DNA of 64,000 nucleotides from Melioribacteraceae bacterium (GTDB lineage Bacteria; Bacteroidota; Ignavibacteria; Ignavibacteriales; Melioribacteraceae): assembly GCA_021739765.1 (NCBI GenBank), contig JAIPBD010000003.1, positions 248,001 through 312,000 of the forward strand. Reading direction: 5' to 3'. Shown piece by piece: positions 21,667 to 38,003 of this stretch. Made by a program: the position numbers and the translations under genes. Under the pieces are notes generated by a model. That model ran no database searches, had not been told where the DNA came from, and saw only the letters and a list, made by a program, of their open reading frames with translations. The number at the start of each line of letters is the position of its first letter. Within the stretch, counting starts at the first letter, position 1.

Positions 21667-24042
21667 CTAATTAGTTAAAGCTTCGGCACGTTTTTTAAAT
21701 AGTAAACTGTACAAAACGTCAAGATAAGCTTCGAGATCCTTTTTCTCCAAGTCTGTGGAGTATTTCCAAAAACCGTAAATTTTAGCATTACTCAATAAAT
21801 TTTGTGAATACAGTTTCCAATTATAAGCAGCGTTTACACGTTCGATTGAAGCTTTCGAAATTTTCTCCCAAAAATCCTTTTCGAAATTAATTCTATTTAC
21901 AACATCCACCAATATTTTAATACTCTCTTCATCATTTACCGGATCGATGTGGAAACCGTTAATTCCATTTTGAATTATTTCCAACGGGCCGCCGTATTTG
22001 GTTGCAATAACAGGCAAACCCGAAATCATAGCTTCGAGCACAGTTAAGCCGAAGCCTTCAAATAATCCTGGCTGAACAAAAAGACCTCTCCTCTCGGCGA
22101 TTATTCTGTACACTTCCCCGGCTTCATCTTTTCGGAATAATTTACCGAGCCATTTAATTTTATTATGAAGATTATACTCGTTGATGATATTGTGCATTAT
22201 ACCAATCTGGTTTTTTTCTTCATGATCCGATGAATCATCCGCGTTTATTTTGCCCGCGACAATTATCAAATTAGCCTTTTCTTGAAGTTCCTTGTTTTGC
22301 CCGAACCACCTCGCGAGCGCTACAATATTTTTATTTTCATCCAACCTTGCCATCGAAAAAATCGGGATCTTTTCCGGATTCTCAAGATTTCCAAAAATTT
22401 CCGGATCATCTGTATCTTCAAATATCATTTTGTTTAATTCATCACGTGTTCCACTAATTCGATTTTTTTGGTTAGTGTAAGGGAAGTAGATCGATTCATT
22501 AACTCCGGGTGACATAATATTAAACTTAGGATGATAAAGATTTACACCGTTTTCAACACGGTACAATCCCGGTAAAGTAAAATGCTGATGAGTTTCATAT
22601 TGTCCAACGGTATTTTCAGTTCCGGCAATTTCTTGGTAAGTAGAAGTAATTTGGAAATCGGACGCGTTCATTGCGATTAAATCCGCTGTAAATTGAAGAG
22701 AAAAGTTATAATTATCTTCAAGGTCGCTCCAGTAGATATCACTAAAAAGATATTTGCTTTTTTCGAGAGCATGTGCGATACAGCATTGAGTTACATTAAA
22801 CCTCTTTGCGAGCAAATACGAAACCAAATTTCCATCAGAATAGTTGCCGATAATAAGATCCGGGCGGCCATTAAATTCGGCTTTTAGCAAAATGAATGAT
22901 TCCTCCGCGAAGGATTCGAGATATGGCCACACTTTAAATCGTGAAATCCAATCCGGGATGATTTCTGAGTTGTTATCTTTGAACGGAACCCGAACTATCC
23001 AGCAATTTTTGGTGCCGTGAATTTTTTCACGTTTTTCATTACACTTTGTTCCCCTTGAGTTTGGAATCAACCGTGTAAGAACAACAATTTTGGGTTGAAT
23101 TTCCAAGCCCATTTTTTTCAGCGATTGAGACAAAGCCTTTTCAAGTGATTTTACTTGATCGAGAATATATACTACCTGACCGCCTGTATCCGGTAACCCA
23201 AGCACTCCTTCTTGGGCAAAAAATCCGTGTGGACTAATTACCGCGATATTAAAAACCATCGGGATTCTTGAAATGAAATTCTTTAGTGCGATATGATCGG
23301 GCGAGTTTAGCAGATCGTCGAGAAGCTGAAAAGTAAGTTTTATTTCTTTTACATTTTTACCCAGCCCGGGTTCGAATCCATATTCCTGAAGTTTATTTTT
23401 AACTGTGGCGAATTTTTCATTATCATCAAATTCGTTAAGGTGTTTTAACGCGTGTTTAATGTTTTTAAGCAGTTCCTCACTGTTTGAAACTCTATCGTTG
23501 AGCAGCAGTTGCATTCCAAAGTGATTATGCATTTTCAGAAAATCGAATAGTTGCTCTTTCCATTTTTCAATATTTGTAAACATTTCACTGGAAAGATGAC
23601 GATTCAGAAACTTAACCCCGGAACCGATATTTTTGGTGGAACGGACACTTGGAATTTTATCAAAAAAAGGTTTGAAATTAATAGTGAGGATGTTTCCGGA
23701 ATTTTCCCCATCAACAAATTGTTCCTTTGCTTTTAAATATTCAAGAATTTCGATTTCTTCTAATACAAACTCTTCAATATTAACAAAGTAAAATTTCGTT
23801 TTCCCGATATTAATTCTAACATCGAAATAAATATAGTTCCCTTGAATAACAGCTTCTTGTAACAAAGCTGTTATCTCTCTTAAATTCTTTTCCGAACCGT
23901 TCAAAGAGGTTGAATACTCCTCGAATGATTCAATTAAATCGCCGAGAATCAGCAGTTTTTTTTCTTTTTTAATGAGGTGACCGCAAAAGCCAAAAAAATG
24001 ATCTCTAAATTCTATTACGATACTTTCGAAATCATTTATCAT
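21667..24042 (-). CDS. susA: Sucrose synthase
   Basis: A 791-residue GT4 glycosyltransferase, the full length for sucrose synthases. The ~265-residue N-terminal regulatory part is followed by the catalytic region beginning with ISPHGFFAQEGVLGLPDTGG, then VVYILDQVKSLE, DFQITSTYQEIAGT, MSPGVNESIYFPY and the GT4 EX7E motif in GLFEGFGLTVLEAM. It reversibly converts sucrose plus NDP to NDP-glucose and fructose. It starts 13 bp after the sucrose-phosphate synthase gene with a GGGGAG site, so it is co-expressed with the synthesis enzyme. Together they allow sucrose to be made and recycled to NDP-glucose. Confidence 0.95.
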   Translation of the reverse strand: MINDFESIVIEFRDHFFGFCGHLIKKEKKLLILGDLIESFEEYSTSLNGSEKNLREITALLQEAVIQGNYIYFDVRINIGKTKFYFVNIEEFVLEEIEILEYLKAKEQFVDGENSGNILTINFKPFFDKIPSVRSTKNIGSGVKFLNRHLSSEMFTNIEKWKEQLFDFLKMHNHFGMQLLLNDRVSNSEELLKNIKHALKHLNEFDDNEKFATVKNKLQEYGFEPGLGKNVKEIKLTFQLLDDLLNSPDHIALKNFISRIPMVFNIAVISPHGFFAQEGVLGLPDTGGQVVYILDQVKSLEKALSQSLKKMGLEIQPKIVVLTRLIPNSRGTKCNEKREKIHGTKNCWIVRVPFKDNNSEIIPDWISRFKVWPYLESFAEESFILLKAEFNGRPDLIIGNYSDGNLVSYLLAKRFNVTQCCIAHALEKSKYLFSDIYWSDLEDNYNFSLQFTADLIAMNASDFQITSTYQEIAGTENTVGQYETHQHFTLPGLYRVENGVNLYHPKFNIMSPGVNESIYFPYTNQKNRISGTRDELNKMIFEDTDDPEIFGNLENPEKIPIFSMARLDENKNIVALARWFGQNKELQEKANLIIVAGKINADDSSDHEEKNQIGIMHNIINEYNLHNKIKWLGKLFRKDEAGEVYRIIAERRGLFVQPGLFEGFGLTVLEAMISGLPVIATKYGGPLEIIQNGINGFHIDPVNDEESIKILVDVVNRINFEKDFWEKISKASIERVNAAYNWKLYSQNLLSNAKIYGFWKYSTDLEKKDLEAYLDVLYSLLFKKRAEALTN

Positions 24043-24055
24043 CGAAACTCCCCTT

Positions 24056-26215
24056 TCAGTCTAAGAATTTATAATATTGGATTCCTTCAATTATACCGGC
24101 CGCGAATTTATTTTCGGCGAAATAGACTCTTCTTCGCCCCTTTAAATCAGCCAACTCTTGTGTATGGTTTCCGACTATTACACCCAGTAATTCACCGGTT
24201 AACATATCCTGATCGTTACCGGAATCGCCGGCGACAAGGATTTTTTCGTGTGGGATATTCCACCTATAACTAAGATATCGAATCGCTCTGCCTTTGCTTG
24301 CTCTAAAAGGAAGGAAATCAATAAATTTCCCATGGCTGACAATCAGATTGGTTTTGATATTATTCTTGATCAAAATATCATTAGCGAGGTATAGCTCTTC
24401 AGGTGACCCAATTAAATTGTAACTCACTTTAAAATCTCTGATTCCGTTATCCTGCAGTTCTATAAAATCGCAGTCTTCTAATAACTCCAGTATTCTATCC
24501 GGTTTCCACGCATTTTTGATATGCGCGGCCCAACTTGTAGAGTAGACATAATCTTCGCCACGATTATAATAAATCTCTGAGCCGACAGATGACACAATAA
24601 CATCCGGTCTTTTAACGCCATTTATATCAAGAACTTCGCATGCGGCATCAATCGTTCTTCCCGTTGAAACACCCCAGCCAATTTTTGATCCTAAATTATT
24701 TGTGAGAAGATCATTCAATTTCGCAAGGGCATCGGAATCTCCAGTCATTGTATCGTCGATGTCAAAAAACATCATTTTTTCATAATTCAATAATTTTTTC
24801 CCGGTCTTAATTACAAATGTTTTTTCTTTCTCTTTATCTTCTTCGAGAACTTCATTTACCAAATTCAGATAATTATCGGTGTGTGCTTCCCAAGAATAAA
24901 ACCTATCAACACGGTCAATACCGCTGAATGAAAACTGCTCCCATTTTTTTTGATCATCCAAAATTTCAAGAAGTTTCTTTTCGATATTTTTTGAATCGCT
25001 TACATCAACAAGCAATCCGTGATGAAGGTTTGAAATAATATCTCTCGGTCCGCCGTCATCTGTAGCAACGATTGGTAAACCGCTGCATGCAGCTTCAATA
25101 AGCGTTAAGCCGAAATTTTCCGAAAATGCAGAATTCACAAATATTCCTTTCGTTTCTGCGGCAATTCTATAAAGCTCCGGCACTTCATTTTGGAAATCAT
25201 GTTTTTTGGGAATTGCCATTTTTCCGTAGAGGTTATATTTATCGAGAAGCAGTAACATCTCAGTCAAAACTTCGCTTTCAATTTCCGGCATCGTTTGAAT
25301 ATCTTTTCTGATTCCGGCAAAAATTGCAAGATTCGCTTTCTTTTGAAGTTCCTCACTTTCGCCGAAGGCTTTAATTAATCCGCCGATATTTTTTTTCTTC
25401 TCGGGGCGACAAAGCGAGAGGATCAAAGGTTTGTTCATATTTGTAAAAAAACGGTACAGTTCCGCTCGGATACTATTCCGTATTACTTGTTCTTCATCAG
25501 TCCATTCGCGTTTGTAGTTATAAGCATAAAACTTTGAAAGATCGATTCCCGGGGGCAGAACGGTAATATTATTTGGGTTTGTGTTTTCATACATTCCATA
25601 CTGTTCTTCAGCCTCCTGAGTTGTACTCGAAATGATTCGATCGGCATAAAAAATTACATCTTCTTCATGACGAATTCGTTTAGACATCGCATATTTTCGC
25701 TCAATTTCTTCTTCGGTCAGGTTTTGCGCTTCGAGATTTTTTTTCTTCATTCTTCCAAGCGAATGTCCGGTATGTATCAGCGGTACGCCAAAAAAACGTG
25801 TCAGAGTCGCTCCCACATATCCTGCATCGGCGTAGTGGCTGTGGATAATGTCCGGCAGCCTTCCAACCGATTTAATATACTTGATCGTTTTGTCGCCAAA
25901 TTCTTCGAGATGATCCCAAATTTGTTCTTTACGGATATATTTTGACCCGCCGCACTTGATGCGAATGATACTCAACTTATCATTTACTTTTTCAATTGGC
26001 TGCGCATAATCTTGGGCAACTGTTTTATCCGCGACTAATCTTGTAACGATTTCGACCTTTTCAACCGATTCACGTTCGCTTAATGTTTTAGCAAATTCAA
26101 GCACATATTTGGTCTGCCCTCCCGTATCAACATCGTGTCCAAGTTCAAGATCATGTCCACGAATTAAACCATGGATATTATAGAGCTGAATATAAAGCTT
26201 ACTTTGTTTTTTCAT
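24056..26215 (-). CDS. spsA: Sucrose-phosphate synthase/phosphatase fusion
   Basis: 719 residues, two domains. Residues 1-~460 are a GT4 sucrose-phosphate synthase: NIHGLIRGHDLELGHDVDTG, GGQTKYV, IHSHYADAGYVG, PPGIDLSKF, and SENFGLTLIEAACSGLP with the EX7E pair. Residues ~478-719 are a HAD-family sucrose-6-phosphate phosphatase with catalytic DIDDT (Asp485), STGRT (motif II) and VAGDSGND (Asp664/Asp668), all intact. The single chain should therefore convert NDP-glucose and fructose-6-P to sucrose. It is the first gene of the pair with sucrose synthase. Sucrose as compatible solute is the likely purpose. Confidence 0.93.
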   Translation of the reverse strand: MKKQSKLYIQLYNIHGLIRGHDLELGHDVDTGGQTKYVLEFAKTLSERESVEKVEIVTRLVADKTVAQDYAQPIEKVNDKLSIIRIKCGGSKYIRKEQIWDHLEEFGDKTIKYIKSVGRLPDIIHSHYADAGYVGATLTRFFGVPLIHTGHSLGRMKKKNLEAQNLTEEEIERKYAMSKRIRHEEDVIFYADRIISSTTQEAEEQYGMYENTNPNNITVLPPGIDLSKFYAYNYKREWTDEEQVIRNSIRAELYRFFTNMNKPLILSLCRPEKKKNIGGLIKAFGESEELQKKANLAIFAGIRKDIQTMPEIESEVLTEMLLLLDKYNLYGKMAIPKKHDFQNEVPELYRIAAETKGIFVNSAFSENFGLTLIEAACSGLPIVATDDGGPRDIISNLHHGLLVDVSDSKNIEKKLLEILDDQKKWEQFSFSGIDRVDRFYSWEAHTDNYLNLVNEVLEEDKEKEKTFVIKTGKKLLNYEKMMFFDIDDTMTGDSDALAKLNDLLTNNLGSKIGWGVSTGRTIDAACEVLDINGVKRPDVIVSSVGSEIYYNRGEDYVYSTSWAAHIKNAWKPDRILELLEDCDFIELQDNGIRDFKVSYNLIGSPEELYLANDILIKNNIKTNLIVSHGKFIDFLPFRASKGRAIRYLSYRWNIPHEKILVAGDSGNDQDMLTGELLGVIVGNHTQELADLKGRRRVYFAENKFAAGIIEGIQYYKFLD

Positions 26216-26453: not shown

Positions 26454-26699
26454 TTATCTTCTTGGACGGGCTTCATTTACAACTAATTTTCTTTCACGAA
26501 AATCTGTTCCGTTCAATTCCTCGACTGCCTTGTTAGCGTCATCATTAGATGCAAATTCAACGAATCCAAAGCCTTTGGACTTTCCGCTAAATTTATCCAT
26601 GATAATTTTAGCACTTGTAATTTCTCCGTACTGACTGAATAATTCGTTTAAGTCTTCGTCAGTTACACCGTAGTTTAAGTTGCCAACGTACAAATTCAT
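26454..26699 (-). CDS. RRM-type RNA-binding protein
   Basis: An 81-residue single RNA-recognition motif. RNP2 is LYVGNL (3-8) and RNP1 is KGFGFVEF (42-49), with the aromatic residues that stack on RNA present in both. The short basic tail ARPRR is typical of the small bacterial/cyanobacterial Rbp proteins, which are often induced by cold or stress. The gene is monocistronic, with its own terminator and an AGGAG ribosome-binding site ~10 nt upstream of the ATG. Confidence 0.93.
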   Translation of the reverse strand: MNLYVGNLNYGVTDEDLNELFSQYGEITSAKIIMDKFSGKSKGFGFVEFASNDDANKAVEELNGTDFRERKLVVNEARPRR

Positions 26700-27010: not shown

Positions 27011-27742
27011 ATGAAAATCAACAAATCTTACCTGTTTAGAAGTTTGTTATTACTTGTTTGTACCGGATTGTTTTCATGCGCCTCAGTGAGAGATTACGAA
27101 CACATTTCTTCAACCAAACATATGACCGGATACTTTTCATATATGGCCGATTCCGGAATATTTATAGATTGCCAAAGTGGTGCACAATATCCTGTTGCTT
27201 CAGAGCAAGACTATCTCAACATGGAAAAAGAATATTTATCACTCAGAACAGAAACCAATCAAAAAATTCTCGTGGATATTCAAGCAAGGATTGGGAGAAG
27301 GTTGCCGATGGAAGGTAATGAAGATGTTGATTTTCTGATTGTTGATAGTTTAGGTCAATTTTACATAGATAAGAATTGTTCTGATTTTATATCAGTGGCA
27401 ACTTTAATAAACACATATTGGAAATTAGTTGAATTAGATGGAGACTCTATCGCGAAAAATTTTGACCGTGATGTTCATTTTATTGTGGAGAATGAAGGTA
27501 CAAAAATCCGCGGGTTCTCCGGTTGTAACAATTTTTTTGGGGAATTTGAGCTGAACGGAAATTCAATTTCAATAAGTCAGCCGGCAACTACTAAAAAATT
27601 ATGTGAAAATATTAGCGATTTTGAGGATCGATTTCTATTCGCATTAACTTCATCAACGCACTATGAAATTTGGGGAGAGACGCTCACTCTATTTAGCAAA
27701 AACACTATCATTGCAAAGTTTAAATCAATTTACTTTAATTAG
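27011..27742 (+). CDS. META-domain lipoprotein with NlpE-C-like domain
   Basis: A 243-residue protein. The lipoprotein signal ends in the lipobox LFSC (Cys23). Residues ~35-125 (TGYFSYMADSGIFIDCQSGA, PVASEQDY) resemble the NlpE C-terminal OB-like domain; residues ~133-240 are an HslJ-type META domain with TYWKLVELDGD and IRGFSGCNNFFGEFELNGN. Two-domain proteins of this type are periplasmic or outer-membrane lipoproteins linked to envelope stress or resistance to hydrophobic antibiotics in relatives; direct function is unknown. The esterase gene follows after 9 bp. Confidence 0.82.
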   Translation: MKINKSYLFRSLLLLVCTGLFSCASVRDYEHISSTKHMTGYFSYMADSGIFIDCQSGAQYPVASEQDYLNMEKEYLSLRTETNQKILVDIQARIGRRLPMEGNEDVDFLIVDSLGQFYIDKNCSDFISVATLINTYWKLVELDGDSIAKNFDRDVHFIVENEGTKIRGFSGCNNFFGEFELNGNSISISQPATTKKLCENISDFEDRFLFALTSSTHYEIWGETLTLFSKNTIIAKFKSIYFN

Positions 27743-27751
27743 GAATCTAAC

Positions 27752-28630
27752 ATGAAAAGAGCATTTATCGTTTTCGTACTTTTTGCAAGCGCGCTGTTTG
27801 CACAATCAAATCACGGAATTGTAAAAGAGGGACTAAAAATTAAAAGTGATATTCTGGGCAAGGAAGTTCGTTATACGGTTTATTTACCTTATGATTATAA
27901 CACTTCCGAAAGGTATTACCCGGTAGTTTATTTGCTTCACGGTTATTCGGATAATGACATGGGATGGCTTCAATTTGGGGAAGCTAACGCACTTGCGGAT
28001 GAAGCAATTCAGAAACGGGAAATTCCCCCAATGATATTAGTTATGCCCGATGCAGGAGTTTCTTGGTACATCAACAATCATGACGGAACCGTCCGTTATG
28101 AGGATTTTTTCGTTGAAGAATTCATTCCATTTGTAGAAGACAATTATCGAATTCGAAAGGAAAAAAGATACCGGGGAATAGCCGGTCTTTCGATGGGAGG
28201 TTACGGTACTTTGGTTCTAAGTTTAAAACATCCCGATTTATTCACTGCCTGCGCGGCATTTAGTTCTGCTGTTTATACCGAAGAAGATATTCTCGGGTTC
28301 GATCAAAGACGGTGGGATAATTTTGAAGCTGTTCTATTTGGTTCGGGTTTGAAAGGAGAGGAACGATTAACGGAACATCTTTTATCAAATAATATTATGA
28401 GCCTGCTTGAAGAATCCGACATGCAAAAACTTAAACGTGTTAAGTATTACATCGATTGTGGAGATGATGATTTTCTTACCAACGGGAACGCAGCTTTACA
28501 TATTAAAATGACGAAGATGGGAATACCGCATGAATATAGAGTGCGCGATGGAGCGCATAATTGGACTTACTGGCGAACCGGATTAATTGACGGACTAAAA
28601 TTTATCGGGCAAAATTTCCATCAATTTTAG
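27752..28630 (+). CDS. Secreted alpha/beta-hydrolase esterase (esterase D / CE1 type)
   Basis: A 292-residue protein with signal peptide MKRAFIVFVLFASALFAQ. It matches the putative esterase family (PF00756): YPVVYLLHGYSDNDMGW (oxyanion region), nucleophile GLSMGG (Ser147), an acidic residue in YIDCGDDDFL and the catalytic His in RDGAHNWTYW. Relatives hydrolyse feruloyl/acetyl esters, S-formylglutathione or siderophore esters; the substrate here cannot be fixed. Being exported, it probably acts on extracellular or envelope esters. Paired with the META lipoprotein. Confidence 0.88.
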   Translation: MKRAFIVFVLFASALFAQSNHGIVKEGLKIKSDILGKEVRYTVYLPYDYNTSERYYPVVYLLHGYSDNDMGWLQFGEANALADEAIQKREIPPMILVMPDAGVSWYINNHDGTVRYEDFFVEEFIPFVEDNYRIRKEKRYRGIAGLSMGGYGTLVLSLKHPDLFTACAAFSSAVYTEEDILGFDQRRWDNFEAVLFGSGLKGEERLTEHLLSNNIMSLLEESDMQKLKRVKYYIDCGDDDFLTNGNAALHIKMTKMGIPHEYRVRDGAHNWTYWRTGLIDGLKFIGQNFHQF

Positions 28631-28670: not shown

Positions 28671-28709
28671 ATGAAAAATGAGACTTACATCACAATAATG
28701 AAATTATGA
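28671..28709 (+). CDS. Possible 12-codon leader peptide upstream of the PqqD-like gene
   Basis: An ATG with a GGGAG sequence ~10 nt upstream opens a 12-residue frame (MKNETYITIMKL) in the intergenic space before the PqqD-like gene. It could be a leader peptide, a tiny substrate peptide, or chance. Nothing but position and the ribosome-binding site supports it. Confidence 0.2.
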   Translation: MKNETYITIMKL

Positions 28710-28769
28710 TTAAACGATTGTGCGGGCTTCGAGGTCTATATTCCAAGTCAATCAAAAAGGGAGAGAGAA

Positions 28770-29006
28770 ATGGATAGGTTACAAAAATTGGCTGTTAACT
28801 CTGAAGGATTCGTTTTCGATCCTACCACCGGTGACAGTTTTACAGCAAACTCAACAGGACTATTTATCCTTAACAGATTAAGAGAGGGTAAATCGGCTGA
28901 TGAAATTGCAGAGGAGTTAAAAAAAGATTTCGAGAACGCGCCTGAAGAGGTAAGCAAAGATGTTTCCGATTTCGTGACACACCTTCATACCTATAATCTA
29001 ATGTAA
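28770..29006 (+). CDS. PqqD-like peptide-chaperone/RRE protein
   Basis: A 78-residue protein with a strong AGGGAGAG site. It follows the PqqD pattern: GFVFDPTTGDSFTANSTGLFIL then LREGKSADEIAEELKKDF and EEVSKDVSDFVTHLHTYNL, i.e. the three-stranded winged helix-turn-helix. In known systems this domain (the RiPP recognition element) binds the leader of a precursor peptide and hands it to modifying enzymes. No PQQ genes (pqqA, C, E) are nearby. It begins a tight operon with an ATP-grasp ligase (10-bp gap) and a PLP decarboxylase (1-bp gap), so it likely serves that enzyme pair. Confidence 0.8.
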   Translation: MDRLQKLAVNSEGFVFDPTTGDSFTANSTGLFILNRLREGKSADEIAEELKKDFENAPEEVSKDVSDFVTHLHTYNLM

Positions 29007-29016
29007 GGGGTAAATT

Positions 29017-30054
29017 ATGTACGAAATTAAAGTCGCAGTTTCCGGAATTAATGCTGTTGATAACCCCGGCCCCGGAGTTGGAGTTGCCCGCTCATTAAAA
29101 GAAGATAAAGAACTAAATGTAACGGTTTACGGATTAGCTTATGACGCAATGGAACCCGGTATATATATGGATTGGGTGATTGATAAGTCGTTCATTATGA
29201 GTTATCCTTCCGGCGGACGAGATGCCTTGCTTGAACGGCTCGGTTATATAAAAAACCGGCATGGCTTAGATATGATAATCCCTAACTTGGATTCCGAGCT
29301 TCCTATCTACACAAAATACGCGAATGAAATTGAAGAAATGGGAATCAAAGTGTACGTTCCTACCGAAAGCCAATACAAACTTCGCGGAAAAGATAAATTG
29401 GAAGAAGTCGCAAAAAATATGGATATCGATCTGCCAAAATCCAAAGTTGTTACATCAGCGCAGGAAGTTATGGAGGCTGTTGAAGATATCGGACTTCCGG
29501 TGATGGTTAAAGGAGCGTATTACAAAGCTGAAAAAGCGTATACTACTCAAGAAGCACTAAATCATTTTCACAAAATCGCCGCTGAATGGGGTTACCCGCT
29601 AATTATTCAGAAAGTTGTGAAAGGGGAAGAAATGAATATTGTTGGTGTCGGAGACGGTGAAGGCAATACTCTCGGAAAACTCGGTATCAAAAAATTGTGG
29701 GTAACCAGCCAGGGCAAAATATGGACAGGTGTAACAATAAAAAATGACGCGATGTTAAAAGCGGTTAACAAGTTTATTGAATTTTATAAATGGAAAGGTC
29801 CGTTTGAACTAGAATGTATGGTTGATAAAGGCAATGTTTATTTGATCGAAATTAATCCAAGGTTTCCCGCATGGTCATATTTCGCTACGGGATGTGGAAT
29901 TAATCTTCCGTCAAACCTTGTTCGAAAAGCGTTTGGCTTGAGCCTAAATATGAATAATGACTATGAAGCCGGAAAATTATTTGTGAGATATACTTATGAA
30001 ACAATTACCGACATGACGGCATTTCAAAATGTGATTTCAAAAGGAGAAAATTAA
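29017..30054 (+). CDS. ATP-grasp carboxylate-amine ligase
   Basis: 345 residues with an AAGGGG site. The N-terminal Rossmann-like part (EIKVAVSGINAVDNPGPGVG) precedes the ATP-grasp fold at ~120-310. KLRGKDK and PVMVKGAYYKAEKAY provide nucleotide-binding lysines, IIQKVVKGEEMNIVGVGDG is the hinge strand, and ELECMVDKGNVYLIEINPRFPAW carries the Mg-binding E and E-x-N. It resembles CarB-like ligases that join a carboxylate to an amine via an acyl-phosphate. Partners suggest the substrates: the neighbouring decarboxylase product and/or a peptide held by the PqqD-like protein. The reaction is inferred, not shown. Confidence 0.85.
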   Translation: MYEIKVAVSGINAVDNPGPGVGVARSLKEDKELNVTVYGLAYDAMEPGIYMDWVIDKSFIMSYPSGGRDALLERLGYIKNRHGLDMIIPNLDSELPIYTKYANEIEEMGIKVYVPTESQYKLRGKDKLEEVAKNMDIDLPKSKVVTSAQEVMEAVEDIGLPVMVKGAYYKAEKAYTTQEALNHFHKIAAEWGYPLIIQKVVKGEEMNIVGVGDGEGNTLGKLGIKKLWVTSQGKIWTGVTIKNDAMLKAVNKFIEFYKWKGPFELECMVDKGNVYLIEINPRFPAWSYFATGCGINLPSNLVRKAFGLSLNMNNDYEAGKLFVRYTYETITDMTAFQNVISKGEN

Positions 30055-30055
30055 A

Positions 30056-31411
30056 ATGATAAAGAAATATGAAAAACCCGTCATGCTGAAAATCGAAACG
30101 GGTATGATGAATAAATTTGGGAGCAGCCCATATTATACCAGAAAAGTAAGAACTGAAATTGATGGCGTGAAAATAGATGATTTAGTGAACGAACACGGAT
30201 CACCGCTCTTCGTCTTCTCAGAATCAACATTGCGTCAACGCTACAAACAGCTTTACAATGTTTTCTCAACCAGATATCCCAACATTGCGTTTGGCTGGTC
30301 ATATAAAACAAATTATTTGCCCGCAATTTGCAATATCCTTCATCAAGAAGGAGCAATTGCAGAAGTAGTTTCCGAGATGGAATATGACAAAGCAAGACTT
30401 GCCGGAATACCCGGAGATAAAATTATTTTTAACGGACCATATAAATCAATCTCCGCTTTGGAAAAAGCAGTAAGCGAAGGTGCGCTTGTAAATATTGATC
30501 ATTTTGACGAGATATACGATTTGGAAAAAGTTGCTAAAAACTTAGATAGAAAAATCAAAGTCGGAATGCGCTTAAACATGGATACGGGAATTTATCCGCA
30601 ATGGACGAGATTTGGATTTAACCTTGAATCCGGGCAAGCAATGGATGCGGTTAAACGAATTGTAAATGGAGGCAAATTAATTCTTAACGGGCTTCACTGT
30701 CACGTCGGTACATTTATTCTTGATCCGAACGCGTACGCGTTAGAAGTTGAAAAAATGACCGGTTTAATGTACGATCTCGAATCGAAGTTCAATATCAAAC
30801 TTGAATATTTGGATATCGGCGGTGGATTTCCATCAAAAAGTAAGTTGAAAGGGACTTATCAATCTCCCGATACTTTGATTCCTTCAATTGATGAATATGC
30901 CGAAGCGATTTCTACAGCGCTTTACAGGAACTTAAAAGGCGGTCACATGCCTCAGGTTTATCTCGAAACCGGAAGAGGAATAATTGATGAAGCCGGTTTT
31001 TTAATCACTTCGATTGTTACTTCTAAACGTTTACCGGATGGAAGAAAAGCGTACGTTGCGGATGCGGGTATTAATCTTTTGTATACGGCATTTTGGTATA
31101 AATACACAATCGAAACAGATCGAGAATTGCAAGGAACGAACGAACCCTCAATGATTAATGGTCCTCTTTGTATGAATATCGATGTAATCGAAGAAGGAAC
31201 TTTACTTCCTCCGATGGAGAAGGGAGTTCGGTTAATACTTTCTCCAGTTGGTGCTTATAATGTCACACAGTGGATGCAGTTTATCGAATACCGTCCTGCC
31301 GTTGTTTTAATCGGTCCGAACAAAACAGTTGATTTGATTCGAGAAAGGGAAGACCTATCCGATATAATCAGACGGGAAAAGGTTCCGGAAAGATTAAAAA
31401 TCAAAGCGTAG
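30056..31411 (+). CDS. Fold-III PLP decarboxylase (DapDC/ODC-like) with leader-like N-terminus
   Basis: A 451-residue alanine-racemase-fold decarboxylase. PLP lysine K84 is in FGWSYKTNYLPA; HCHVGT, YLDIGGGFPS and ETGRGII bind the phosphate and substrate; GPLCMNIDVI supplies the C-terminal Cys-Asp of the dimer active site. Family members decarboxylate diaminopimelate, ornithine, arginine or carboxyspermidine; the substrate here is not the obvious DapDC one given the context. The first ~30 residues (YEKPVMLKIETGMMNKFG) are an extension upstream of the domain and look like a RiPP precursor leader. It has its own AAGGAG site one base after the ATP-grasp stop. Confidence 0.85.
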   Translation: MIKKYEKPVMLKIETGMMNKFGSSPYYTRKVRTEIDGVKIDDLVNEHGSPLFVFSESTLRQRYKQLYNVFSTRYPNIAFGWSYKTNYLPAICNILHQEGAIAEVVSEMEYDKARLAGIPGDKIIFNGPYKSISALEKAVSEGALVNIDHFDEIYDLEKVAKNLDRKIKVGMRLNMDTGIYPQWTRFGFNLESGQAMDAVKRIVNGGKLILNGLHCHVGTFILDPNAYALEVEKMTGLMYDLESKFNIKLEYLDIGGGFPSKSKLKGTYQSPDTLIPSIDEYAEAISTALYRNLKGGHMPQVYLETGRGIIDEAGFLITSIVTSKRLPDGRKAYVADAGINLLYTAFWYKYTIETDRELQGTNEPSMINGPLCMNIDVIEEGTLLPPMEKGVRLILSPVGAYNVTQWMQFIEYRPAVVLIGPNKTVDLIREREDLSDIIRREKVPERLKIKA

Positions 31412-31418
31412 CCGGTTG

Positions 31419-33491
31419 ATGAAACATCTAAATGCAATCCTTTATAGTTATTCGGAAATATTATTTATAAGAAGCCGGTGGTCCGGCTTCTTATTATTTC
31501 TGATTACTTTGCTAAATCCATATGTGTCTTTGGGCGGAATTGTTTCGGTTTTGTCGGCATATACTTTTGCACGATTAATAAACATGGACAATGAATTTCT
31601 CAAAGAGGGGTTCTACACTTACAATCCATTGCTTACGGGATTATCAGTTGGTTATCTGTTCAGTTTTACACCTTTAACGATTCTGTTTATGGTTATAACC
31701 GGGATTCTAACATTCGTTACCACAATATTTCTATCAAGCATTTTCTCATATTATTTAAAACTTCCCGTTCTGAGTATGCCGTTTGTGATTATCTCTTCCC
31801 TCGCATATATGGCGTCCACGCAATATTCAAATCTCTTCGTAACGGGATTGTATAATCACACCTATTGGGATATACAATTAACTTTCGGTTTTTGGATTGA
31901 CGGATATTTCAAATCCATCGGCGCGATATTTTTTATGCCGAATGTTGTTACGGGAATTATAATTGCCTCTATAGTTTTGGCTCTTTCTCGTATTCACTTT
32001 CTCCTTTCCATTCTGGGCTATTATATAGGCACCTTAGTGATTGCGCTGATGGTGGGATCGTTCGAGCAATCCTTTTCCGATATAAATCATTTCAATTTTA
32101 TATTAATTTCGATGGTCGTCGGAGGAATTTTTCTCGTCCCATCACCCAAAAGTTATTTGATCGCAATTATCGCGGTCTGCACTTCAACGGTTTTACTGGA
32201 TGCTGTTTTGGTTTTTTGGTCGAATTATGGAATCCCGGCTTTTACATTGCCGTTTAATATAATCTCACTCTCGTTTATCTATGTTTTGGGAGTCGTCAAA
32301 TTCCCGCAAATGGCATATTTAATAAAAGATACACCAGAAGAAACGATCGACTTATACCTCTCCAACAAAGACCGTTACAGAGGATCTTGGATTACAATAA
32401 TGCTTCCATTTGCCGGGAAATGGACTGTCTATCAAGGATTTAACGGGAAATGGACTCATCAAGGCGGATGGCGATATGCTTACGATTTTATAATCACAGA
32501 TGAAGATGGTAAAAGTTTTAAAAATGAAGGAAATCTCGCAACCGATTATTACTGCTTTAAGAAACCGGTTCTGTCTCCCATTAGAGGAAGAGTGGTTAAA
32601 GTTGTAAATAATCTGCCTGATGTTGAAATAGGAACTGTTGATAAGGTGAATAATTGGGGCAATTTGATAATAATTAAAGATGAAAGAAATTTTTATGTTG
32701 AAATTTCTCATTTAGCCGAAGATTCGATAAAGTTGGAAGAAGGCGCGTGGGTCGAACGTGGCACAATGTTGGGGCTTTGCGGCAATTCGGGGTATTCGCC
32801 TCAACCACACATCCATATACAAGTTCAAGAAGTTGAGTCAATTGGCGCTTACACAATTCCATTCAGTTTTGTAAACTTTATGGAATCGGGAGTTTATCAT
32901 TCCAACGACTTGCCCGAATTGGACGCAATCGTTGAACCGTTGCATGTTGATTTGAAGTACGATTCCAAAACATCATTTGTTCTTGATGATGTTTTTGAAT
33001 ATAAAATCATTAAAAATGAAACTGAAATTGACAGATTGAATCTAACTGTAAAAATGGCTCTGGATGGAACCTTTTATCTCGATTCGGGAAAAGGAAAATT
33101 ATATTTCGGAAAACATGAAGGCACTTTTTATTTTTACAGTTCGGAAGGAAACGATAAATATTTGAATGCGATATTTCAATCGCTCCCAAGGTTTCCATTA
33201 ACATACCGGGAAAATCTAACCTGGAGCGATACAATTCCTGTCGGACGTGTTTTGAAAGCCGTGCCCAAAGCGATTGTTCAGTTTTTAATTTCATTCGTTC
33301 ATAACGCATTTAAAATAAATGTAAACTTAAAGTTTAGTTCGCCTACTAAAATTACAAGCAAAATCAGCTCGAAAGTACTAAAGGTAAATCGTACGGCAGA
33401 GCTTGAATTTTCGGATCAAGTCGGATTTAAAAGTATAAAAGTGGAAGATATAGAATTAAGGAGAATCGAAAGTGCGTCGAATACTGATTAG
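31419..33491 (+). CDS. Urea transporter / M23 (LytM) peptidase fusion
   Basis: ~690 residues; the ATG at 31419 is preferred over an in-frame TTG just before it. Residues ~1-305 are a urea-transporter domain with about ten membrane helices and the motif TYNPLLTGLSVGY. Residues ~325-475 are an M23/LytM metallopeptidase domain whose zinc ligands are intact: H347-x8-D356 (THQGGWRYAYDF) and HIHIQV (H464, H466), with SHLAEDS between. Residues ~490-690 are an unassigned beta-rich tail. The peptidase should face the periplasm and could trim peptidoglycan or a peptide, while the channel passes a small urea-like solute. It follows the decarboxylase by 7 bp. Confidence 0.88.
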   Translation: MKHLNAILYSYSEILFIRSRWSGFLLFLITLLNPYVSLGGIVSVLSAYTFARLINMDNEFLKEGFYTYNPLLTGLSVGYLFSFTPLTILFMVITGILTFVTTIFLSSIFSYYLKLPVLSMPFVIISSLAYMASTQYSNLFVTGLYNHTYWDIQLTFGFWIDGYFKSIGAIFFMPNVVTGIIIASIVLALSRIHFLLSILGYYIGTLVIALMVGSFEQSFSDINHFNFILISMVVGGIFLVPSPKSYLIAIIAVCTSTVLLDAVLVFWSNYGIPAFTLPFNIISLSFIYVLGVVKFPQMAYLIKDTPEETIDLYLSNKDRYRGSWITIMLPFAGKWTVYQGFNGKWTHQGGWRYAYDFIITDEDGKSFKNEGNLATDYYCFKKPVLSPIRGRVVKVVNNLPDVEIGTVDKVNNWGNLIIIKDERNFYVEISHLAEDSIKLEEGAWVERGTMLGLCGNSGYSPQPHIHIQVQEVESIGAYTIPFSFVNFMESGVYHSNDLPELDAIVEPLHVDLKYDSKTSFVLDDVFEYKIIKNETEIDRLNLTVKMALDGTFYLDSGKGKLYFGKHEGTFYFYSSEGNDKYLNAIFQSLPRFPLTYRENLTWSDTIPVGRVLKAVPKAIVQFLISFVHNAFKINVNLKFSSPTKITSKISSKVLKVNRTAELEFSDQVGFKSIKVEDIELRRIESASNTD

Positions 33492-34329
33492 TTTAATGCT
33501 TCTTTCCGGATTAGTTTTTTCACAATCGGAAATTTTAGTAATGCCTTATTATATGCCGATTCAGTATCATGATTCAGATTACCGAAAAGGAAGCTATTTA
33601 TTGGGAATATATTCCTCGCTTGAGTTAGATCTTGATAACTCTTTAGAGATTGAACTTGATTACACCAAATTGAGCTTTATCAATAATGTTTCCTTAAAAC
33701 AAAAGGATGTTACAATAGCTTTTAACAATTTATCGATTCCCGATTGGAAATTTAGGGCCGGATTGCATTATATAATCTCGGATGATAGTTTTACCGATAA
33801 AGGGTTTACGGTTTTCGGTGGAGTTGGAACTTATCGTTTTAATTCATGGGATGCTTTTGTAAGTGTTTATTACTCAGATTACAAAAACTATCAACCCGGA
33901 ATAAACGTTTTTCAAGTTTCACCAAAGTTTGGATATACTTTTAAATTATCAAGAAATAAGGGAATTTACGCCTCGGTCACCGGTCATTTGATAAATCTTT
34001 CAGAAGAATTAAACTTGGGAGGGAAGAAATATAATTCGGGAGAAATTAACGCGACTTATTTTGAAGATATGATTTCACTCAATGTTTTTTTCTGGTTTGG
34101 CGAACAGGTTTTTGCGGCAAAAAAAGATGGATTTTTACTTTATAACGTAAATGAAGTTTATAAAGGTGGATACGGCCTATCAGCACAATACGAATTGACT
34201 TCATCTTCTTTTATTAAGCTAACTTACGAAATTGATAATTACGACGAGATTTATGATTTTGGCGGTTTCAATATTCAAAACAGCGCAAAATCTTCAAGGG
34301 CAATTTTAGCTTTAGGAATAACTTTTTAA
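33472..34329 (+). CDS. Putative outer-membrane beta-barrel protein
   Basis: A 285-residue protein starting at GTG 33472 with AAGGAG 8 nt upstream, overlapping the transporter-peptidase gene by 20 bp. Signal peptide 1-18 (ISLMLLSGLVFS-QS). The rest alternates hydrophobic and polar residues in about twelve strands rich in Tyr/Phe/Asn, ending in Phe (LALGITF), the terminal aromatic typical of outer-membrane barrels. No family recognised. The position suggests an outer-membrane pore for the substrate of the neighbouring system. Confidence 0.72.
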   Translation: MRRILISLMLLSGLVFSQSEILVMPYYMPIQYHDSDYRKGSYLLGIYSSLELDLDNSLEIELDYTKLSFINNVSLKQKDVTIAFNNLSIPDWKFRAGLHYIISDDSFTDKGFTVFGGVGTYRFNSWDAFVSVYYSDYKNYQPGINVFQVSPKFGYTFKLSRNKGIYASVTGHLINLSEELNLGGKKYNSGEINATYFEDMISLNVFFWFGEQVFAAKKDGFLLYNVNEVYKGGYGLSAQYELTSSSFIKLTYEIDNYDEIYDFGGFNIQNSAKSSRAILALGITF

Positions 34330-34366
34330 TTTATTTTTCAGTTGGATCAACTTTCGGGGAGTCGGG

Positions 34367-34981
34367 ATGAACAAATTATTTTGTTTGCTTTTTTTTCTAT
34401 TTACAATTTCAGTAAGCGCTTTAACGCCGGAAGAAATAAAAGAGGCTTATCACCGTTCTTACACATACGAGAAAATAGAAGATTATGAAAACGCCATCCG
34501 TGCGATAATGCCGGTTTACGACGAGTATTCATCAGCCTACACAGTAAATTTACGACTCGGTTGGCTCTATTATTTATTGGGGAAATACTCAAATTCACTC
34601 GATCATTATCAAAAAGCGATGAAGGCAAATCAGTATTCGCTTGAAGCTAAAAACAGCTCCATTCTTCCATTGCTCGCTCAGAATAAATATTCTGAGGCTG
34701 AAACAATGGCTTATCAAATTGTCTCGGTCGATTATTATAATTATTACGGGAATCTTCGTTTATCATACGTTCTACGAATGCAGAAAAAAAACGAACTTGC
34801 CTCTCAAGTTGTAAATAAGATGCTTGCGGTTTATCCAAGCGATGTTTCATTCCTTACCGAACTCGCATATTTAAAACACGCGCAAAATGATAAAGAAACC
34901 GCGGCGTCATTATTCTGGGATATTTTAATTCTTGATCCTGAAAACAACGATGCAAAATCCTATTTACAAGTTGATGAATAG
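34367..34981 (+). CDS. Periplasmic TPR protein
   Basis: A 204-residue protein with signal peptide (MNKLFCLLFFLFTISVSA) and a GGGGAG site. About four TPR-like helix pairs follow, e.g. RLGWLYYLLGKYSNSLDHYQKA, PLLAQNKYSEAETMAYQI and LAYLKHAQNDKETAASLFWD. TPR proteins scaffold complexes; with the preceding barrel and transporter-peptidase it may assemble an envelope machine. Binding partners unknown. Confidence 0.82.
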   Translation: MNKLFCLLFFLFTISVSALTPEEIKEAYHRSYTYEKIEDYENAIRAIMPVYDEYSSAYTVNLRLGWLYYLLGKYSNSLDHYQKAMKANQYSLEAKNSSILPLLAQNKYSEAETMAYQIVSVDYYNYYGNLRLSYVLRMQKKNELASQVVNKMLAVYPSDVSFLTELAYLKHAQNDKETAASLFWDILILDPENNDAKSYLQVDE

Positions 34982-35007
34982 AAGATTGGAAAGGCGTTGA
35001 AACCAAT

Positions 35008-35817
35008 TTGTTGAAAAGTAGAATTAAGCCGATTACCCTCCCGATTTTAATATTTTCAATCATATTATGCGGCTGCTCGTACGATTGGAGTTATCCTTCC
35101 GAAGATTTTATGATTATTGCTCACAGAGGGGCTTCGGGTTCAGCACCCGAAAATACGATTCCGGCGATAAAAAAAGCGATTGAATTCGGCGCCAATTTTA
35201 TCGAAGTAGATATTCATCAAACCCGTGATCAAAAATTAGTTGCGATTCATGATTTTACTGTTGACAGAACAACAAACGGAACGGGTGAAATCGCACGACT
35301 TAATTATAAAGATCTCCAATTCCTTGATGCAGGAAGCTGGTTCGATCAAAAATTCGCAGGCACACAAATTCCTATGCTGTCAGAAATATTTCCTCTAATC
35401 CCGGATTCGGTCAAACTTATTATTGAAGTAAAAGGGGATTCGGCTGATTATCCGGATATCGAAAATAATGTGGTGAACTTAGTACGCGAACACAATTTTG
35501 AGGAGAGAGTAATTCTAAAATCTTTTGATGAAGATGTTTTAGACCACTTCAAAATGCTCGCCCCCGAAATTCCACGATTGCTTGTTTATGTTTTCGGGTT
35601 TGGGGTTCTCGATACTGAAGTCACTTATTTGCAGCATTACGAACTATTCCTTTCCAAAGGATTTACGGAATCCGCACAAAAAGAGGGATACAAAGTTATC
35701 GCGTGGGGAGTTCAGTCCGAATCTGAAATGGAAAAAGTTTTAAGCTACGGAGTCGATGGAATTGAAACAGATTTTCCGGAGAACCTTATTAAACTTATCA
35801 AAATCAATAAAAAATAA
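35008..35817 (+). CDS. ugpQ: Glycerophosphodiester phosphodiesterase lipoprotein
   Basis: A 269-residue GDPD enzyme hydrolysing glycerophosphodiesters to glycerol-3-phosphate and an alcohol. The catalytic set is intact: IAHRGASGSAPENT (His39), FIEVDIH (Glu66, Asp68), and IHDFTVDRTTNGTG (His81). A hydrophobic N-terminus with cysteines (IILCGCS, Cys23) implies a lipoprotein. The start is TTG (35008 or the next codon) because no ATG lies before the signal; a GGAAAGG sequence is ~15 nt upstream. It follows the TPR gene by 26 bp and may share its transcript. The symbol follows the usual family name. Confidence 0.87.
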   Translation: MLKSRIKPITLPILIFSIILCGCSYDWSYPSEDFMIIAHRGASGSAPENTIPAIKKAIEFGANFIEVDIHQTRDQKLVAIHDFTVDRTTNGTGEIARLNYKDLQFLDAGSWFDQKFAGTQIPMLSEIFPLIPDSVKLIIEVKGDSADYPDIENNVVNLVREHNFEERVILKSFDEDVLDHFKMLAPEIPRLLVYVFGFGVLDTEVTYLQHYELFLSKGFTESAQKEGYKVIAWGVQSESEMEKVLSYGVDGIETDFPENLIKLIKINKK

Positions 35818-35870
35818 TTGCCTCCAGATTGAATAGAATTATTAAAGGCTCATTGTTGTTATCTTAGAAT

Positions 35871-38003
35871 ATGCGAAAAATATTTCTATCAATCCTAATT
35901 TCGGCGGTTTCTGCTCAGGTCATCTTTTCTCAAAACTCTGATACATTATCTTTTAAAATGGATTCGGTTATTGTATCTGCAACTCGTTATGATCAGCCGC
36001 TCAACAGCATTCCATTTTCCCTTGATGTGATTAAAGCCGATGAATTGCTGCTTACTCAAAACTCATTTTCAACGATCGATTTGCTCGCAAGTGTTCCCGG
36101 CATTTATGTGAGCGATAGAAATAATCTGTCGCAAGGAGATAGAATCAGCATTCGGGGAATGGGGAACAGGGCACAATTTGGTGTTCGCGGTTCAAAGATT
36201 CTTTTGGATGGAATTCCCCTCACTTTTGCCGATGGTCAATCGCAACTAAATAATTTAGAATTAAACAACATAGAGAAAGTGGAAATAATTCGCGGACCAA
36301 GTTCATCCCTTTATGGAAATTCTTCCGGCGGAGTAATTTTATTTACGAGCAAAATTAGTAATAAAAAAAAGTTCACTTTTGAGCCGGCTTATAAAACCGG
36401 CAGTGACGGATTCAGGAATATAAACTTAAATGTTCATGGCGTTGCCGGCAAATCATTCCTTTCGCTAATGTTAAATTCTAAAAAGTATGACGGATTCCGG
36501 GATCATTCTGCCGGAGAATCGTATTCAATCAATTTTATTAGCAAAACCAAATTTAGAGACGAGTGGGCGATAAATTCAATATTAAATTTTTATGATGCTC
36601 CATATCTGTTAAATCCCAGTTCGTTAACAAAAGAAGATGCGTTAAACAGACCGACATTTGTTCGAGATTTTGTTAAAAAACAAGCGGCGGGAAAAGAGGT
36701 TCGTCAAGGTCAGGCCGGCATTACTCTTACCAGAAAACGGGAAAACAGTAATTTTAATTTTACAATTTTCGGCGCCTCCAGATCAATGTTTAACCCGATT
36801 CCCGGCAGAATAATAAAATTAAATCGTCTGGCCGGCGGTATTCGAACGACATTTTCCAGTTCGTTTTTAGTCGGGAAAAAAACGGTTAATTACACCACGG
36901 GTTTCGATTATGAATTTCAAAATGACGTGCGTACGGAATTTGAGAATGATGGAATAAACGATGCTGACTATGCAAATGTTGATCCATCAGAAATTATCCG
37001 CAACGTTCGAATTGGTGAGGCGGTTTTAGATCAAAAGGAATCAGTTGAATCGTACGGCGCATTTGTAAACTTTGATTATGATCCGAGTCCAAGAATAAAT
37101 CTGATTGCAGGGATGAGAGTCGACAACTTCCTTTTCGAAGCGACGGATAAATATTTGTCCGATCTGTCGGATGATTCCGGTGAGCGTGAAATGAACAGCG
37201 TAAGCGGAATGCTCGGAGTAATTTACAAACTAAATATAACCGATCATTTTTTCGCGAATTTCAGCACATCTTTTCAAACACCGACAACAAATGAATTGAG
37301 TAATCGCGAGGACAATCTTGGTGGATTTAATCCCACTCTTAAACCCGAAAATATCCTCAGCACTGAAATCGGCTTTAGAGGATATTCCGATAAACTCGAT
37401 GCTTTTTTTACGGCCGCGATTTATTATCTACAAATTGATAATATAATGTTACCCTTTCAGTCAACATTAAATTCGAGCGATGAAGTATTTTATAAAAACG
37501 CTGCCAGGGCGGGTAACTTCGGAATTGAACTTTCAACAGATGTAAATATCACTTCGAAACTACTATTCGGATCGGCGTATACTTTTTCTAACTTCAGATT
37601 TATTAGCTACTTCACCGATGGAAATGATCTAAAAGGAAATAAAATCCCGGGCATTCCGGACCACAAAGTTCATTTTGATTTGAGATATAATTCTTCATTC
37701 GGATTGAGTTTATTGTTCAATGTAAGTTGGAATGGTGAGTATTTCACAGATGATTTTAACGGAAGCAACTCAACGAGCGAAGCTGACAAAAATAATTTTA
37801 TTAACGATTCATACACCGCAGCAAATTTCACATTTCTATATAAATACGTAATGTCTTTTTCAGATATTATTATTAATATGAGTATTAACAATATCTTAAA
37901 TGAAAGATACAACAGTTCAATCACGCCAAATTCTTTTGGAAACAGATTTTTTGAACCTGGAAGAGATCGAAATTATATTTTCGGTGTTCAAATATTTCTA
38001 TAA
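35871..38003 (+). CDS. TonB-dependent outer-membrane receptor
   Basis: 710 residues. Signal peptide ~1-20; a TonB-box-like SVIVSATR near residue 34; plug domain (~45-165) with LLASVPGIYVSDR, RISIRGMG, LLDGIPL, VEIIRGPSSSLYGNSSGGVI; then a 22-strand-type barrel ending IFGVQIFL. It lacks the CarboxypepD-like N-terminal domain of SusC proteins, so it resembles siderophore/cofactor receptors. The ligand is unknown. It stands after the GDPD gene (53-bp gap), and might import a compound handled by that operon. Confidence 0.93.
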   Translation: MRKIFLSILISAVSAQVIFSQNSDTLSFKMDSVIVSATRYDQPLNSIPFSLDVIKADELLLTQNSFSTIDLLASVPGIYVSDRNNLSQGDRISIRGMGNRAQFGVRGSKILLDGIPLTFADGQSQLNNLELNNIEKVEIIRGPSSSLYGNSSGGVILFTSKISNKKKFTFEPAYKTGSDGFRNINLNVHGVAGKSFLSLMLNSKKYDGFRDHSAGESYSINFISKTKFRDEWAINSILNFYDAPYLLNPSSLTKEDALNRPTFVRDFVKKQAAGKEVRQGQAGITLTRKRENSNFNFTIFGASRSMFNPIPGRIIKLNRLAGGIRTTFSSSFLVGKKTVNYTTGFDYEFQNDVRTEFENDGINDADYANVDPSEIIRNVRIGEAVLDQKESVESYGAFVNFDYDPSPRINLIAGMRVDNFLFEATDKYLSDLSDDSGEREMNSVSGMLGVIYKLNITDHFFANFSTSFQTPTTNELSNREDNLGGFNPTLKPENILSTEIGFRGYSDKLDAFFTAAIYYLQIDNIMLPFQSTLNSSDEVFYKNAARAGNFGIELSTDVNITSKLLFGSAYTFSNFRFISYFTDGNDLKGNKIPGIPDHKVHFDLRYNSSFGLSLLFNVSWNGEYFTDDFNGSNSTSEADKNNFINDSYTAANFTFLYKYVMSFSDIIINMSINNILNERYNSSITPNSFGNRFFEPGRDRNYIFGVQIFL

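Follow-up and report, generated by a model that had tools for sequence, protein, structure and literature searches.

Several described biosynthetic routes join an acid to an amino acid and then remove the alpha-carboxyl group with a fold-III decarboxylase that depends on pyridoxal phosphate (PLP); rhizoferrin synthesis by FigA/FigC (FslA/FslC) and the SbnH and AcsE routes are of this kind. According to the sections of PMC7857480 consulted, the substrates are citryl-amino acids for FigC, SbnH and AcsE, a modified peptide-nucleotide for MccE, and an amino acid bound to a carrier protein for BtrK. A six-gene cassette whose logic appears to resemble such ligate-then-decarboxylate pathways lies in a stretch of 64,000 nucleotides from a Melioribacteraceae bacterium (GCA_021739765.1, contig JAIPBD010000003.1, positions 248,001 to 312,000), the whole of which is called the window here. 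The cassette is real and occurs widely; within the limits of the search it is undescribed. Its parts belong to known families: a PqqD-like protein, an ATP-grasp ligase, a fold-III decarboxylase (DEC), a urea-channel (UT) domain fused to an M23 zinc peptidase (UT-M23), an outer-membrane barrel and a TPR protein. It probably builds a small amine-bearing molecule and moves it through the cell envelope. Tentatively, and with chances that we put slightly below even, it may be a horizontally mobile, envelope-linked biosynthetic set in which ligation comes first and decarboxylation second. No account of this gene set was found in the open-access literature (PubMed Central, mostly without subscription papers), so the sequence-only reading that had called it a candidate undescribed system holds to that extent; the portions of PMC8939145 and PMC12710340 consulted do not mention it.

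The cassette shares something with each of its closest described counterparts. With the rhizoferrin pathway it has in common the FigC-like traits of DEC, namely the methionine after the catalytic cysteine and the threonine and tyrosine of the specificity helix; it differs in that its ligase is of the ATP-grasp type and not a siderophore synthetase of the kind independent of non-ribosomal peptide synthetases (NIS synthetase, as FigA is), in that H357 and R387 of FigC are replaced by isoleucine and glutamine, and in its additional PqqD-like, UT-M23, TPR and barrel proteins. In the LysW/LysX system ATP-grasp ligation onto a small protein is paired with release by a zinc peptidase, and the cassette too pairs an ATP-grasp ligase, a small protein and a zinc peptidase, but the C-terminus of its PqqD-like protein is not conserved. 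In butirosin synthesis (BtrJ/BtrI/BtrK) loading is reportedly carried out by an ATP-grasp enzyme. That route likewise combines a small partner protein with a fold-III decarboxylase acting on a loaded amino acid (PMC7857480, consulted sections); in the cassette, by contrast, the partner is PqqD-like and not a carrier protein (none of the nine window proteins scanned gave a carrier-protein match), and a channel-peptidase and an outer-membrane part are added. The pyrroloquinoline quinone (PQQ) and lasso-peptide systems have a small protein of PqqD fold in common with the cassette, which differs from them in that 40 genomes show no PqqE over cut-off, in scores that fall under the cut-offs and in that no precursor was seen. 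Finally, in branches 7 and 8 of the graspetides an ATP-grasp enzyme stands beside peptidases and the precursor was not found, as in the cassette; the main text of PMC8939145, which describes these branches, never names a decarboxylase, urea or M23, and the cassette ligase is CarB-like.

The sequence-only reading had described seven plus-strand genes spaced by 10, 1 and 7 bp, a 20-bp overlap, and then 37 and 26 bp, and a check of the open reading frames (ORFs) agrees. The start of the first gene has to be moved: the ATG at 28671 runs into an in-frame TGA 12 codons on, and the PqqD-like gene begins at 28770, preceded by a purine-rich gggagagaga. All on the plus strand, the genes encode a stand-alone RRE-type (peptide-binding) PqqD-like protein of 78 aa (28770..29006; PF05402), a CarB-like ATP-grasp ligase of 345 aa (29017..30054; PF15632, PF02786), the FigC/FslC-resembling DEC of 451 aa (30056..31411; Orn_Arg_deC_N and Orn_DAP_Arg_deC), UT-M23 (31419..33491; UT and Peptidase_M23), a 14-strand outer-membrane barrel of 285 aa assigned by structure model (33472..34329) and a TPR protein of 204 aa that matches several TPR models and whose start, by eye, resembles a signal peptide (34367..34981). 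The 7-bp gap presumes that UT-M23 starts at ATG 31419; the alternative is TTG 31416. The families previously named were thus recovered, the barrel by its structure model and PqqD, ATP-grasp, decarboxylase, UT, M23 and TPR by family models. The seventh gene, a GDPD family match (35008-35817, plus strand), had also been counted as part of the set and is not a member: the cassette comprises the six genes from PqqD-like to TPR, and neither GDPD nor the esterase and META genes of the window were found adjoining it in 31 fetched related loci.

Conservation was examined among 98 genomes from the window's own family and order, its own genome included. The ligase is present in 32 of these (match E up to 1e-20), in one of them as only the last 81 residues at a contig end (G025). 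The same 32 genomes match the DEC profile at E <1e-100, the next matches being ordinary relatives at 5e-50, and 31 of the 32 match the UT-M23 profile (30 at full length; in G027 the match is split over two contigs). The remaining ligase genome (G021) has a 4.6-kb contig that stops after DEC. None of the 66 genomes without the ligase gave a full-length UT-M23 match; separate UT or M23 genes occur there. Across 32 loci, made up of the window and 31 fetched ones, DEC is present in all 32, PqqD in 31, UT-M23 in 30 and TPR in 28, and where one gene is missing the contig ends at that spot. Co-occurrence and neighbourhood of the cassette genes are far beyond chance.

The neighbourhood extends well beyond the order. 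A GTDB scan with the ligase alignment retained the best 80 of at least 566 stretches encoding relatives; in the collection of loci as a whole, three pairs (L042/L063, L044/L084, L045/L141) are the same contigs, so that three loci count twice in several alignment sets. Among the best 80, PqqD and DEC each adjoin the ligase in 76 of the 77 loci with room, UT-M23 stands beside it in 59/63 and a TPR homologue occurs in 49/58. PqqD, ligase and DEC lie on one strand in 77 of the 80 loci, and in 68 UT-M23 is also near on that strand. The first refuting result named in the sequence-only reading, that the three enzyme genes would not be conserved neighbours, thus did not occur. The loci without the trio are two at contig ends (L078, L093) and a cyanobacterium with the ligase alone (L095), and where there was room and no linked UT-M23 (L081, L121, L129) the gene was found on another contig. 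A full set occurs in a named strain, Thermodesulfatator autotrophicus S606 (L097). Two side observations concern copy number: L088 carries a partial second PqqD and ligase upstream of its cassette, and G101 has two full ligase matches on separate contigs.

The ligase tree spans 19 phylum labels, taken from submitters' titles and mostly belonging to metagenome bins (MAGs). L062 is the row closest to the window ligase, at 76% identity. The window ligase sits in a clade of five rows (support 99) near rows of Thermodesulfobacteriota, Gemmatimonadota, Calditrichota and Aquificota, at forks with support of only 84-88. Nine other Ignavibacteria ligases group with Bacteroidota (support 100). Given two ligase subtypes within one order, of which a quick ligase tree took in 8 of the 32 loci, the cassette has likely been transferred horizontally. 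Comparison of distance matrices gave rho 0.84-0.87 among ligase, DEC, UT-M23 and TPR, and 0.60-0.67 for pairs that include PqqD; permutations gave rho of at most 0.13 (200 per pair). Related rows lack independence and three loci were entered twice; the correlation therefore speaks for travel as a unit, not for interaction.

DEC points most directly to the chemistry. Its best solved relative is 7kh2, an N-citrylornithine decarboxylase (204 bits), and diaminopimelate (DAP) decarboxylases reach 143 bits or less. Specificity positions of FigC were taken as given in the consulted sections of PMC7857480 and paired by hand on the DEC-7kh2 alignment, FigC being the only conjugate-acting decarboxylase so compared. 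FigC C354, M355, T327, Y331 and Y383 are kept in DEC as C372, M373, T344, Y348 and Y401, and T330 is W347; the citryl-binding H357 and R387 are not kept, their places being taken by I375 and Q405. C372, M373, I375, T344, W347, Y401 and Q405 are invariant in 12 aligned sequences, and GPLCMNID and a GAYxxTQwmQFI region are conserved in 101 aligned cassette DECs (98 distinct). DEC thus has FigC-like specificity positions, with methionine after the catalytic cysteine and no aspartate or arginine on the specificity helix, and lacks the acidic or arginine residues of ornithine, arginine and DAP decarboxylases (ODC, ADC, DAPDC) and of CASDC. Judged by these residues, it is not a DAP, ornithine or arginine decarboxylase.

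Model scores agree with this placement. DEC does not reach the curated LysA cut-off (224.8 vs 297.9 bits) or that of the NCBIfam FslC model (231.6 bits, threshold over 500); in ten cassette genomes DECs score 213-242 bits on the LysA model. LysA genes over the cut-off are present in 6 of 11 ligase-bearing genomes, where they score 467-548 bits; one of the six (G108, the genome of L095) has LysA and no DEC. DEC carries CMNID and TxxWY at places where LysA-like references have CETGD or CESGD and an RP helix: nine such references were taken from these genomes, six of them scoring over the LysA cut-off and three matching the DEC profile, and all show CETGD or CESGD together with RP except L148, which has neither. 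Since DEC is nearest to FigC, whose group acts on amino acids that are already ligated, ligation before decarboxylation appears the likelier order, by sequence and by analogy.

The ligase scores over the cut-offs of PF15632 and PF02786, its nearest solved sequences are the carbamoyl phosphate synthetase large chain and 2pn1, and EINPRFPAW is among the residues invariant in 22 aligned sequences. Its small partner is a PqqD-fold (RRE) protein (PF05402, 51.7 bits against a cut-off of 23.4) that falls under the PqqD equivalog cut-off (25.5 vs 46 bits) and under the lasso cut-offs. PqqE (TIGR02109) was not found over its cut-off in any of the 40 ligase-bearing genomes, with 14 control genomes also giving 0; with this, and with residues of DEC that differ from those of polyamine enzymes, the second refuting result named earlier, a match to a known PQQ or polyamine route, did not occur either. 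A peptide substrate is another matter. An all-against-all comparison of 1021 short ORFs (22-114 aa, taken from 104 of the 112 loci and lying outside larger genes), which was not aimed at remote or shorter precursors, yielded no credible cross-phylum precursor or carrier family, and the families that emerged looked like out-of-frame or repeat sequence. The peptide held by the PqqD-like protein in the sequence-only reading has thus found no short ORF family to go with it, and a peptide is suggested by the PqqD-like gene alone. Only the window's closest relatives share a 114-aa gene that precedes PqqD by 86-87 bp (L042 10777-11121, L043 5291-5635, L044 10641-10985); the window itself lacks it, its esterase and PqqD genes being 139 bp apart, and the copy scanned (L042) has no family match above cut-off.

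UT-M23 gives 209.7 bits to UT and 41.1 bits to Peptidase_M23. The UT domain and solved urea transporters align over their whole length, the PE motif past the last helix included, and an LPxxT/SxPF-like UT motif occurs in both halves (LPVLSMPF and IPAFTLPF in the window protein). For the M23 domain the solved matches are peptidases, ShyA and lysostaphin among them, and they cover chiefly its C-terminal half. H348, D357, H432, H465 and H467, which we take to be the M23 zinc ligands and catalytic histidines, are present in 86/86 distinct UT-M23 proteins (89/89 with repeats), and C455 in 87 of 89 (repeats counted). Both termini of solved urea transporters are cytosolic. Ten membrane spans were assigned from hydropathy and the UT repeat symmetry, and no hydrophobic stretch separates UT from M23. 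The side carrying the termini is richer in lysine and arginine than the other in 85 of 86 distinct proteins, in a test that is partly circular because the loops were picked after viewing the hydropathy and charge table; two stand-alone UT relatives have 7 vs 1 positive residues. The M23 domain therefore likely faces the cytosol, and the earlier idea of export followed by trimming becomes doubtful with it. As a side observation, the first part of the UT-M23 gene contains a perfect hairpin of 12 pairs followed by T-rich sequence (31467-31494), which could be an attenuator or mere coding sequence.

The barrel has no Pfam or NCBIfam match at E 0.01. Its structure model (predicted local distance difference test, pLDDT, 92.5) predicts an N-terminal helix and 14 strands, a 14-strand pore fold, and resembles small-molecule pores, CymA and FadL-like barrels among them.

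Put together, these parts suggest a sequence of steps. The PqqD-like protein would offer the ATP-grasp ligase a peptide or some other carboxylate. The ligase would couple this to an amino acid through the amine (or hydroxyl) of the side chain, leaving the alpha-amino and alpha-carboxyl groups free; DEC would then strip the alpha-carboxyl to give an amine-ended conjugate. The M23 domain, probably at the cytosolic mouth of the urea-type channel, could free the amine-bearing part for passage through the channel, and the TPR protein and barrel could take the product across the outer membrane. The precedence of ligation over decarboxylation is the best supported part of this scheme, and release through the channel and passage of the outer membrane are the least. 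A fuller version, in which one pathway across phyla has PqqD and the CarB-like ligase load an amino acid, DEC decarboxylate it in FigC-like manner while loaded, and a cytosolic M23 release the product into a urea-type exit channel, strikes us as rather doubtful as a whole. If true, a urea channel would belong to a machine for synthesis and secretion, and an M23 enzyme would work in the cytosol.

Several observations weigh against this scheme, beyond the partial circularity of the charge test. One UT-M23 protein (L109) has the opposite charge bias, the control with a solved urea transporter gave only 6 vs 4 positive residues, and the nearest stand-alone M23 relatives (L151, L152) have a signal-peptide-like start, a point in favour of a periplasmic M23. 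For a conjugate, moreover, a pore of the urea type is narrow. The PqqD pattern is kept in the PqqD-like protein and its C-terminus varies across homologues, so C-terminal tethering is unlikely; the absence of a shared precursor or carrier among the short ORFs counts here as well. In the genome of L095 the ligase was found without PqqD, DEC or UT-M23, its sole DEC match being its LysA, and the three cyanobacterial cassettes are without TPR and barrel. Lastly, in five cassette genomes (G000, G024, G044, G043, G023) DEC is the sole LysA-model match and none is over the cut-off; with no such LysA there, genome content alone leaves room for a lysine role.

Part of the evidence would suit a route free of peptides, in which the ligase and DEC make a metallophore-like N-acyl-diamine in the manner of FigA/FigC, the product leaves through channel and barrel, and the PqqD-like protein is only a ligase subunit. 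The nearness of DEC to N-citrylornithine decarboxylase, the failure to find a precursor peptide and the likeness of the barrel to small-molecule pores all lean this way. The citryl-binding residues are not conserved, however, heavy-metal RND and copper ATPase genes are not clearly enriched around the ligase (among the matches listed, 3 and 1 of 40 genomes have them within 10 kb), and the PqqD-like and M23 proteins are left unexplained; we consider this route unlikely, though deserving of attention. The order originally proposed, with DEC making a free amine that the ATP-grasp enzyme ligates to a PqqD-held peptide before export and trimming, is in keeping with the gene content, but the residue that binds the side-chain amine in ODC, ADC and DAPDC is a methionine in DEC, as in FigC, and FigC, SbnH, AcsE, MccE and BtrK use substrates that are already conjugated (PMC7857480, consulted sections). 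The order is probably the reverse, DEC being nearest to FigC, and decarboxylation of a free amino acid before ligation seems improbable. What stands of that reading is the conserved set; GDPD falls away, its order of chemistry is probably the wrong way round and its peptide is not supported.

The kinship of the M23 domain with wall peptidases such as ShyA and lysostaphin could point elsewhere, to a periplasmic M23 working with a DEC and ligase that alter or recycle diaminopimelate-containing wall peptides. Two stand-alone M23 relatives look exported and DEC shares ancestry with DAPDC, as this explanation would have it; the charge pattern places M23 in the cytosol in 85 of the 86 distinct proteins and DEC has neither the CETGD/CESGD nor the RP helix of DAPDC, and we give modification of the wall a low probability. 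Import and salvage, in which a small amide or peptide enters by way of barrel, TPR protein and channel, is cut by M23 and is used by the enzymes, would account for the likeness of the barrel to CymA and FadL-like barrels, which we take to be uptake channels. Yet the ligase and decarboxylase appear to be of biosynthetic types and the cassette seems to hold no energy source for transport, which makes uptake very improbable. A biosynthetic set with ligation first remains our preferred reading. The cassette is kept across Aquificota, Cyanobacteriota, Campylobacterota, Bacteroidota and Verrucomicrobiota and missing from 66 of the 98 order genomes, a pattern that points to a useful and widely exchanged product; DEC and the PqqD-like protein suggest concrete substrate classes, and finding the product would bring either a class of metabolite or a modification of the envelope that is new.

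Surrounding genes were considered as further members. Upstream of PqqD, 22 of the 32 Ignavibacteria loci have a homologous gene on the same strand (at L039 as a contig-end fragment), and the three scanned all carry a type IX sorting domain; such a type IX secretion gene is neither upstream of the window cassette nor general in other phyla, and was rejected as a core part. A link to metal resistance found no support either. Hints of it came from a divergent two-component system of heavy-metal-like type and a small secreted gene at cyanobacterial loci, from a copper-resistance multicopper oxidase at L120 (793 bits, over cut-off) and from RND genes near L071 and L125. Among the matches listed for the 40 ligase-bearing genomes, 3 have TIGR00914 no more than 10 kb from the ligase (G100 and G129 over cut-off, G118 under) and 1 has TIGR01511 so near (G102), against chance expectations, reckoned by hand with contig ends ignored, of about 1.3 (207 TIGR00914 matches in about 132 Mb) and about 0.4. 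Nor was a plasmid or phage origin retained: the top plasmid matches are only 28.7% identical for the ligase (26 records) and 30.2% for DEC (263 records), and phages gave four weak Listeria phage matches to the ligase.

Other neighbours are recorded as observations. At the cyanobacterial loci L095, L096, L098 and L105 a divergent two-component system and a small secreted gene, Spy/CpxP-like by eye, lie upstream of the ligase; at L096, the one scanned, the best matches of the two-component system are heavy-metal models, below their cut-offs. Two Bacteroidales loci (L123, L130) have genes of about 1270 aa upstream of PqqD whose start looks secreted. In the window a META/NlpE_C gene and a putative esterase lie directly upstream of the cassette (27011-28630), and downstream the GDPD gene, with a start that looks lipoprotein-like by eye, is followed by a TonB-dependent receptor (35008-38003). 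Further upstream, on the minus strand, are an 81-aa protein with the look of an RNA-binding RRM, by eye (26454-26699), and a sucrose synthase adjoining a sucrose-phosphate synthase/phosphatase-like fusion (21667-26215).

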